64,000 bases of DNA from Tenacibaculum pelagium (GTDB taxonomy: Bacteria > Bacteroidota > Bacteroidia > Flavobacteriales > Flavobacteriaceae): positions 248,001 to 312,000 of the forward strand of contig NZ_JACGLS010000001.1 of NCBI RefSeq assembly GCF_014062345.1. The letters are read 5' to 3'. Position numbers and translations under genes: made by a program. Position 1 is the stretch's first letter; each line of letters opens with the position of its first letter. Of the stretch, positions 58,852 to 61,057 are shown piece by piece. The notes under the pieces are model-generated. The model saw only the letters and a list, made by a program, of their open reading frames with translations. It was not told where the DNA came from and searched no databases.

Positions 58852-60948
58852 TTATTTATCTAACTTGTCTTCTAACATTAATAAGAAAGTATACTCTTCT
58901 GCAGTTTCTTTTAAGGCATCAAATCTACCAGAAGCTCCTCCATGACCTGCATCCATGTTTGTATGCAAAAACAATTTATTATTATCTGTTTTTACATCTC
59001 TTAATTTTGCAACCCATTTTGCAGGCTCCCAATATTGCACTTGACTATCATGTAAACCTGTTGTAATTAACATATTTGGATATGCTTTCGCTTCAACTTG
59101 ATCGTAAGGAGAATATGATTTAATATAATCATAATACTCTTTGTCATTCGGATTTCCCCATTCATCATATTCACCAGTAGTTAACGGAATACTATCATCT
59201 AACATGGTAGAAATTACATCTACAAATGGTACAGCTGCAATAATTCCGTTATATAATTCAGAGTTCATGTTAATAATTGCTCCCATTAATAATCCTCCTG
59301 CTGAACCTCCCATAGCATATAAATGCTCTGGTGAAGTATAATTGTTCTTAATTAGATATTTAGAACAATCAACAAAATCGTTAAAAGTATTTTTCTTGTT
59401 CAACATTTTCCCATCTTCGTACCAATCTCGTCCTAAGTATTGACTTCCACGAATATGCGCTAAAGCAAAAATAAATCCACGATCTAACAAACTTAAACGG
59501 GTAGTTGAAAATCCGTCGTTTACTGTATATCCATATGATCCATATGCATATTGTAAAATTGGCGTTGAATTATCTACTTTGGTTTCTTTATGACGTACAA
59601 TAGATAGGGCTACTTTTTTACCATCACGTGTTGGAACCCAAATACGTTCACTTACATAATTCTCTTTATTAAACTTCCCTCCTAAAACTTCTTGTTCCTT
59701 TTTAATTTCTTTAGATTGATCTTTCATATTAAAATCAATCACTGAACTTGGAGTAGTCATAGAATTGTATGAATAACGAATTATATCAGTATCAAACTCT
59801 GGGTTCGCATATACTCCTGCTGAATATGTTTCTTCATCAAACGGTAAATAATAATCTTCTGAATTATCCCAACGTTTAATTCTAATTTTATTCAACCCTT
59901 CATTCCTTTCTTCTAAAACTAAGTAATCTTTAAAAATTGAAAAATCTTCAAATAAAGTATCTTCTCTATGTGGAATTACATCTATCCAATTTTCTTTTGA
60001 AGTTTTATTTTCAGGAGTTTTCATCAACTTAAAGTTAGTTGCTCCGTCTTTATTGGTTTTAATATAAAAATGATCTCCATAATGAGCTATATCATATTCC
60101 AAATTGCGTTCACGTGGTTGAATCATTCTAAACTCACCTTCAGAATTATCAGCTTCTAATACTTGATATTCTGTAGATACAGTGTTATATGAACCGATTA
60201 CTATATATTTTTTAGACTTTGTTTTAGTAACAAAAGTTCCGAACGTTTCATCTTTTTCTTCAAAAACTAAAATATCTTCAGAAGCATCGGTACCTAAGAT
60301 ATGTTTGTAAATTTTTGAACTACGCAGAGTCTGCGGGTCTTGTTTTGTATAATAAATTGTTTTGTTATCATTCGCCCAAACAGAACCTCCTGTGGTATTT
60401 TCAATTTTATCTGCGTGAACTTTACCGTTTTCTAAATTTTTAATTTGAATCGTGTATTGACGACGACTAACAGTATCTACAGCAAATGTTGTTAATTTAT
60501 TATTTGGTGAAATTCCTAAACCTCCTAATTGAAAATACTCATATCCTTTCGCCTCATCATTTACGTTAAACATTATTTCCTCTTCAGCACTTAAACTTCC
60601 TTTTTTACGGCTATAAATCGGATACTGTTGCCCTTTTTCGAAACGAGTAATATAGAAATACCCATTCTTTTTATAAGGTACAGATTCATCATCTTCCTTA
60701 ATACGACCTTTCATTTCTTGAAATAATTGCTCTTGAAAATCTTTCGTTTCAGCAGTCATTTCATCATAAAATGTATTTTCGGCATTTAAGTAATCGTATA
60801 CTTTTTGCGTTTGCTCATCTTTTTCTTTAGCGTTTTTTTGCTTATCGGTTAAACGCATCCAAAAATAATTATCTGTACGTACATCACCGTGTTTCTCTAA
60901 AGTAATTGGTTGCTTTTCAGCTACTGGAGCTTTTATATCTTTCTTCAT
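58852..60948 (-). CDS. S9A prolyl oligopeptidase (oligopeptidase B-like)
   Basis: A 698-residue serine peptidase with an N-terminal beta-propeller (to about residue 420) and a C-terminal alpha/beta hydrolase domain: the nucleophile is in AMGGSAGGLLMGAI, the acid in TTGLHDSQVQYWEPAKW and the histidine in DAGHGGASGRFD. It cuts short peptides after basic residues or proline. Two codons upstream in the same frame is a TAA, and above that, an intact lipoprotein signal peptide (60955-61026). So the original protein was probably an outer-membrane or periplasmic lipoprotein, and the present start at ATG 60948 gives a cytoplasmic form. Whether the enzyme is still made is unclear. Confidence 0.85.
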   Translation of the reverse strand: MKKDIKAPVAEKQPITLEKHGDVRTDNYFWMRLTDKQKNAKEKDEQTQKVYDYLNAENTFYDEMTAETKDFQEQLFQEMKGRIKEDDESVPYKKNGYFYITRFEKGQQYPIYSRKKGSLSAEEEIMFNVNDEAKGYEYFQLGGLGISPNNKLTTFAVDTVSRRQYTIQIKNLENGKVHADKIENTTGGSVWANDNKTIYYTKQDPQTLRSSKIYKHILGTDASEDILVFEEKDETFGTFVTKTKSKKYIVIGSYNTVSTEYQVLEADNSEGEFRMIQPRERNLEYDIAHYGDHFYIKTNKDGATNFKLMKTPENKTSKENWIDVIPHREDTLFEDFSIFKDYLVLEERNEGLNKIRIKRWDNSEDYYLPFDEETYSAGVYANPEFDTDIIRYSYNSMTTPSSVIDFNMKDQSKEIKKEQEVLGGKFNKENYVSERIWVPTRDGKKVALSIVRHKETKVDNSTPILQYAYGSYGYTVNDGFSTTRLSLLDRGFIFALAHIRGSQYLGRDWYEDGKMLNKKNTFNDFVDCSKYLIKNNYTSPEHLYAMGGSAGGLLMGAIINMNSELYNGIIAAVPFVDVISTMLDDSIPLTTGEYDEWGNPNDKEYYDYIKSYSPYDQVEAKAYPNMLITTGLHDSQVQYWEPAKWVAKLRDVKTDNNKLFLHTNMDAGHGGASGRFDALKETAEEYTFLLMLEDKLDK

Positions 60949-60951
60949 TTC

Positions 60952-61026
60952 TTACTTTTTGCAGGATGCAAAAATAAGACTAAAAGCCATAGCAAAAAGC
61001 ATATTCTTTTTCATTTTATTAACCAT
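60952..61026 (-). pseudogene. Lipoprotein signal peptide cut off from the S9 peptidase by TAA
   Basis: Reading left from ATG 61026, 24 codons spell a standard lipoprotein signal (KKNMLFAMAFSLIFASCKK with the lipobox FASC), followed by TAA at 60954-60952, one further codon and then the ATG of the S9 peptidase in the same frame. A change of one base (for example CAA or AAA to TAA) would restore the fusion. The signal is otherwise undamaged, so the event is recent, an error in the sequence, or a functioning stop. Confidence 0.7.
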
Positions 61027-61049
61027 AACTAAATTCTTTGTGAAAATGC

Positions 61050-61057
61050 TATTTTTG
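61050..61057 (+). promoter_or_regulatory. -7 element of ybaB
   Basis: TATTTTTG is a perfect TAnnTTTG match, 29 bases ahead of the ATG at 61087. The region also carries the divergent 5' end of the S9 peptidase gene. Confidence 0.5.

Follow-up and report, generated by a model that had tools for sequence, protein, structure and literature searches.

An in-frame stop behind the lipobox of an oligopeptidase B gene in Tenacibaculum pelagium, and a predicted promoter box overprinted on the same signal-peptide codons

The window, by which we mean the whole stretch of 64,000 nucleotides of Tenacibaculum pelagium DNA that was analyzed (contig NZ_JACGLS010000001.1, positions 248,001 to 312,000; the genome is a draft of 30 contigs and 2.62 Mb), carries on its minus strand the gene of an oligopeptidase B (OpB) and, directly before it, a lipoprotein-type signal peptide (Table 1). 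Read in minus-strand order, an ATG is followed by 24 codons (MVNKMKKNMLFAMAFSLIFASCKK) ending in FASCKK, then by a TAA, the single codon GAA and the ATG of the 698-residue enzyme, all in one frame. This arrangement had been described in a first-pass annotation, and its coordinates were confirmed. The TAA thus keeps the signal peptide from being joined in frame to OpB. The start orthologous to that of the relatives is the second ATG within the former signal peptide, at 61014. On the plus strand a divergent open reading frame begins, the product of which is presumably YbaB/EbfC-like.

Table 1. Features at the OpB locus in the window, by position and strand.
Feature	Position	Strand	Basis
Oligopeptidase B (OpB, S9A), 698 aa	58852..60948	-	ATG 60948-60946
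Leader (16 nt) predicted for the short mRNA, with +1 predicted at 60964	60949..60964	-	Inferred from box positions -12 to -5 in the available text of PMC6847099
TAA between lipobox and OpB, within the 5' leader predicted for the short mRNA	60952..60954	-	+1 by F. johnsoniae -7 positions
Former lipoprotein signal peptide, 24 codons, lipobox FASC	60955..61026	-	ATG 61026-61024
Lipobox Cys codon	60961..60963	-	Sequence
TATTTTTG, predicted sigma-A -7 box over lipobox codons L-I-F-A	60969..60976	-	Exact TAnnTTTG match
Site of the weak TAnnTT element that lies upstream in most intact relatives; TA reads CA here	61043..61048	-	
TATTTTTG 29 nt before the ATG of the divergent gene, probably its -7 box	61050..61057	+	
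Divergent ORF, 107 aa	61087..61410	+	

The enzyme had been described as a full-length S9A oligopeptidase with its features intact, and this held. Both S9 Pfam domains are present, and the motifs GGSAGG, GLHDSQ and GHGG, in which we place the catalytic Ser, Asp and His, are conserved in the alignment to oligopeptidase B of the PDB. Residues 7-692 align with the PDB entry 7ywp (E 5.4e-218), so that the sequence relation covers both the propeller and the catalytic domain; the window enzyme is like the known oligopeptidases B (MEROPS S9A; PDB 7ywp, 7ne7 and others) in near full-length alignment, domains and motifs. Against the NCBIfam equivalog NF007511, the sole family listed for the protein, it scores 728 bits, below the cut-off of 1313. 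The general label oligopeptidase B, as judged from sequence, rests on the PDB alignment; what the score denies is the narrower NCBI label alone. In the available text of PMC4522959 oligopeptidase B is described as a cytoplasmic enzyme, whereas most genus members studied here carry a predicted lipoprotein-type signal peptide; the lipoprotein form is therefore the unusual one. The same genome encodes a second S9 peptidase (L002, G000:C25:58157-60163; 27% identical) with an intact lipobox-like signal peptide of its own (MKKLILPILIASIAIVSCKK), and this second enzyme might make a loss of exported OpB easier to bear.

A strong OpB match was found in 160 of 166 genomes of the genus, the single genus code of the genome set covering both Tenacibaculum, which supplies the nearest relatives in the named collection, and Polaribacter, which supplies more distant ones. 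The upstream DNA was read for 149 of the 160, the other 11 being left out. A signal peptide was counted as intact when an n-region with K/R, a hydrophobic stretch and a lipobox Cys stood in frame with the enzyme; two loci (L010 and L183) were corrected to intact by eye. By this simple rule the signal peptide is intact in 107 of the 149 loci and broken in 40, and two loci have a TTG start. That the signal-peptide frame is no chance hydrophobic stretch is borne out by the 107 genomes in which it is intact and in frame with the enzyme. Stops, frameshifts, lost start codons and a lost lipobox Cys all occur among the breaks. A stop directly after the lipobox is also found in L111 and in L132 (Cellulophaga fucicola), the gap from stop to start being 3 nt in the window and in L111 and 12 nt in L132. 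Comparison with close relatives at the place of the TAA showed a glutamine codon in the nearest one, L032 (94% identical), the signal peptide of which is closely similar and differs from that of the window by two further amino-acid changes. Because so close a relative has the glutamine codon, export by the lipoprotein route was probably lost recently in this species.

On a quickly built tree of the genus, made from OpB coding DNA without the upstream region, signal-peptide status changes 20 times by parsimony (the two TTG-start loci taken as intact), and the window stop, as read from this one tree, is not an isolated oddity. Parsimony itself gives no direction; loss is suggested by decayed frames in which remnants of the lipobox persist. 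Over the twelve codons upstream of the box described below, pN/pS is 0.58 in intact loci (47 disjoint pairs, bootstrap 0.43-0.77) and 0.90 in broken loci (17 pairs, 0.65-1.25), the latter not different from 1; the broken value exceeds the intact one, but the intervals overlap. For the enzyme the values are 0.12 (intact loci) and 0.15 (broken loci). The start ATG of the signal peptide is kept at 0.97-0.99 per base in intact loci. The long form thus appears to be under selection where the signal peptide is intact, and relaxed selection is suggested where it is broken.

Absent from the first-pass annotation, as was the broken state of the signal peptide in 40 of the 149 genus loci, is the TATTTTTG in the lipobox codons (60976-60969), an exact match to the sigma-A -7 consensus of Bacteroidota. 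It stands 20 nt before the OpB ATG, a typical start-codon distance for a -7 box: in the species' own genome TAnnTTTG peaks 20-30 nt before the first ATGs of ORFs, with 91 occurrences observed and 7.2 in base shuffles (1044 genes). Among 187 distinct loci, drawn from the genus and from outside it, L002 (a paralogue) and L104 (the best alignment starts late) being set aside, the box was found in the right region in 173, and 156 of these 173 boxes lie 20-29 nt before the next in-frame ATG. Within the genus 103 of 107 intact, 37 of 40 broken and both TTG-start loci carry the exact box, counts which ignore relatedness, and 7 of 149 lack it in exact form. Dinucleotide-shuffled windows gave 2.7 of 39 broken loci (36 observed) and 9.4 of 101 intact loci (97 observed). 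The box lies entirely within signal-peptide codons in 101 of the 105 intact loci parsed, which do not include L010 and L183. When broken loci are aligned on their best box match, which favors the box, the six fixed bases show conservation of 1.00, 1.00, 1.00, 1.00, 0.97 and 0.95, and the signal-peptide ATG in the same box-anchored alignment drops to 0.72, 0.46 and 0.54 per base.

Outside the genus set the box is present in 30 of 37 loci. The seven without it are L107, L110, L295, L296, L297, L300 and L301, of which the last five make up the whole sample from three families of the order that are more distant; none of these five has an exact box. Among 50 further loci of the family (the 30 best matches plus 20 picked for short open frames) 45 have the box. 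In L292 it is retained in a different codon frame of the signal peptide, and in L116 (Lutibacter oceani), L119, L291, L293, L298 and L299 it stands 18-22 nt before the ATG with no intact signal peptide.

Several loci depart from this pattern. In L048, L079, L080, L110, L302 and L313 TATTTTAG replaces TATTTTTG and the lipobox has Leu instead of Phe; TATTTTAG may be either a -7 box variant that these loci share or the mark of weakened promoters. The broken genus locus L088/L172 (G158) has no near match to the box; in its place inspection by eye shows a hairpin with a T run behind it. Ten family members (L333, L337, L340-L342, L344 and L347-L350) have neither a signal peptide nor an ATG near the start of the domain; by eye their likely start codon is a TTG, which follows a TAnnTTTG box.

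In the protein the box reads [LVITAC]-[IT]-F-A of the lipobox. In the protein-anchored set of 105 intact signal peptides its first codon is CTT in 78, GTT in 12, ATT in 8, ACT and GCT in 3 each and TGT in 1, so that the codon supplying the first T of the box ends in T in 105 of 105 cases, whether it encodes Leu, Val, Ile, Thr, Ala or Cys. The free positions of the box do vary (ATT, ACA, ACT). The residue varies and the final T is constant: the constraint acts on nucleotides, not on amino acids. A control set of 88 lipoprotein-type signal peptides, collected by rule from 1.252 of the 2.622 Mb of the species' own genome, behaves differently. Leu at the first box codon is CTT in 78 of 78 cases vs 48 of 253 in the controls, and Phe in the box is TTT in 103 of 103 vs 98 of 125, relatedness being ignored in both comparisons. 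In none of the 88 controls does a TAnnTTTG start within the 40 nt that precede the Cys codon; in one it stands 7 nt behind that codon. A Met at most 10 codons after the Cys is found in all 105 intact OpB loci parsed vs 3 of the 88 controls. A like layout, with the box in the first 60 codons and an in-frame ATG 12-35 nt further on, was matched 15 times among 931 ORFs of at least 150 codons in the own genome; by eye many of these matches look like over-long first-ATG calls.

According to the available text of PMC6847099, the -7 box of Flavobacterium johnsoniae occupies positions -12 to -5 and the mean leader length is 33 nt; for F. psychrophilum that of PMC9723704 gives a median leader of 24 nt. 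Published consensus and leader lengths agree with the arrangement in the window. From the published box positions the start of a short mRNA would fall at about 60964, adjoining the Cys codon, with the TAA inside the leader, where it would be silent for the short mRNA. At the locus no -33 element can be seen; a -33 TTG was sought in 170 promoters of the own genome, and none is clear there either. In their exact box and its typical start-codon distance the OpB loci resemble the sigma-A(Bfr) promoters of Bacteroidota (TAnnTTTG/TAHHTTTG) as given in the available parts of PMC6847099, PMC9723704 and PMC7366714; unlike those promoters, the box here overlaps conserved protein-coding sequence.

For the long form, a same-strand TAnnTTTG before the signal-peptide ATG was not found as a rule (10 matches in 103 intact loci, 130 nt searched). 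Most intact relatives have a weaker TAnnTT element upstream, at a place where the window reads CA for TA. Where it can be placed, the element is present in 73 of 93 intact vs 7 of 37 broken loci, counted without the 17 loci in which it could not be placed and the 2 TTG-start loci; its association with intactness has weak support when relatedness is allowed for (about 7 to 1 pairs, median p 0.07). The proposed element overlaps the -7 box of the divergent gene. That box would overlap the expected start region of the relatives' long OpB transcript, and the two promoters may compete.

From these findings we propose, as the probable explanation, that the in-frame TAA ended the exported lipoprotein form of OpB and that the enzyme would now be made solely as a cytoplasmic protein, from a short mRNA driven by a promoter with its -7 box inside the lipobox codons. 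This mRNA would start next to the Cys codon and carry the TAA in its untranslated leader. Relatives with an intact signal peptide would make two products from the one gene, the lipoprotein from a longer transcript and the cytoplasmic enzyme from the embedded promoter; the ancestral gene would have had both, and this species would have retained the cytoplasmic one. With an embedded -7 box a stop in the signal peptide need not harm expression, and here it is probably harmless owing to the conserved promoter in the signal-peptide codons. Since the short form would be independent of the signal peptide, the exported form could be lost by single mutations and the enzyme kept.

Of the three options left by the first-pass annotation, a recent loss of export with the enzyme now cytoplasmic fits best, given the glutamine codon of L032. 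Read-through of the stop, with the lipoprotein still made at a low level, would make use of the frame that is continuous across the single stop; it would not mend the frameshifts, the start-codon loss and the Cys loss by which other relatives are broken, and we regard it as highly improbable. An error of sequencing or assembly, the species still making the lipoprotein, is quite unlikely. The TAA is indeed one base from a sense codon, as had been pointed out, the assembly is a 30-contig draft and the remainder of the signal peptide is nearly intact; against this, signal peptides are often broken in the genus, single-contig genomes included (L022, L173, L184, L188, L201 and L218, for example), and the window lineage also differs at the upstream TAnnTT element and departs from L032 at two further signal-peptide residues.

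Two other readings dispense with either the internal promoter or the long form. The ribosome could translate the signal-peptide minigene on a long mRNA, terminate at the TAA and resume at the ATG 3 nt further on, no internal promoter being involved. The short stop-to-start gaps in the window, L111 and L132 suit such a re-initiation, which leaves unexplained both the TAnnTTTG at near-equal distance in loci whose signal peptide is missing or frameshifted and the constraint on third codon positions; we consider it unlikely. Conversely, the signal peptide might never have been translated, the short cytoplasmic form alone having ever existed and the upstream frame being a chance reading of a T-rich promoter. 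Family members without signal peptide do exist, and a canonical promoter before the signal-peptide ATG is not the rule; the conservation of that ATG in intact loci and their pN/pS of 0.58 (bootstrap 0.43-0.77) speak against this reading, to which we give little probability.

Among known systems the proposed two-product gene is closest to the N-terminal proteoforms of Salmonella. In the available part of PMC11005335, which has the lipoprotein gene yfhG among its alternative-start examples, one gene likewise yields two forms, of which the longer has a targeting signal and the shorter lacks it. The Salmonella forms arise from alternative translation starts, whereas OpB, for which the evidence is that of sequence, has a conserved box in the signal-peptide codons and a targeting form that was repeatedly lost. 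For a superoxide dismutase of Cryptococcus the title of PMC7961099 names alternative localization of one gene's product by a transcription-factor route, which is likewise transcriptional; unlike the OpB case it concerns a eukaryote. The literature was searched for promoters within signal peptides, for start choices that yield a cytoplasmic form and for OpB as a lipoprotein or in these genera; no bacterial promoter within signal-peptide codons was recognized from the titles and abstract beginnings among the matches listed, a search whose scope did not extend to most subscription journals.

Of greater interest than the stop is the putative box overprinted on the lipobox codons, conserved across much of the family, together with what appears to be repeated loss of the exported product. 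We lean towards the wider reading that OpB genes of Flavobacteriaceae commonly have a core promoter in their signal-peptide codons, that the transcript start chooses between a lipoprotein and a cytoplasmic peptidase, and that the exported form was lost many times; as part of this joint reading, and held with the same slight preference, the window would be a loss of the exported form caught at one base. If this is true, a bacterial gene picks membrane or cytoplasm by which promoter fires, the second promoter being written over the very targeting signal. The repeated tolerance of an in-frame stop or a frameshift in the signal peptide would be explained, and the annotation of OpB start sites would be incomplete in many genomes. 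The genus would then offer a replicated natural series of localization changes of one enzyme.
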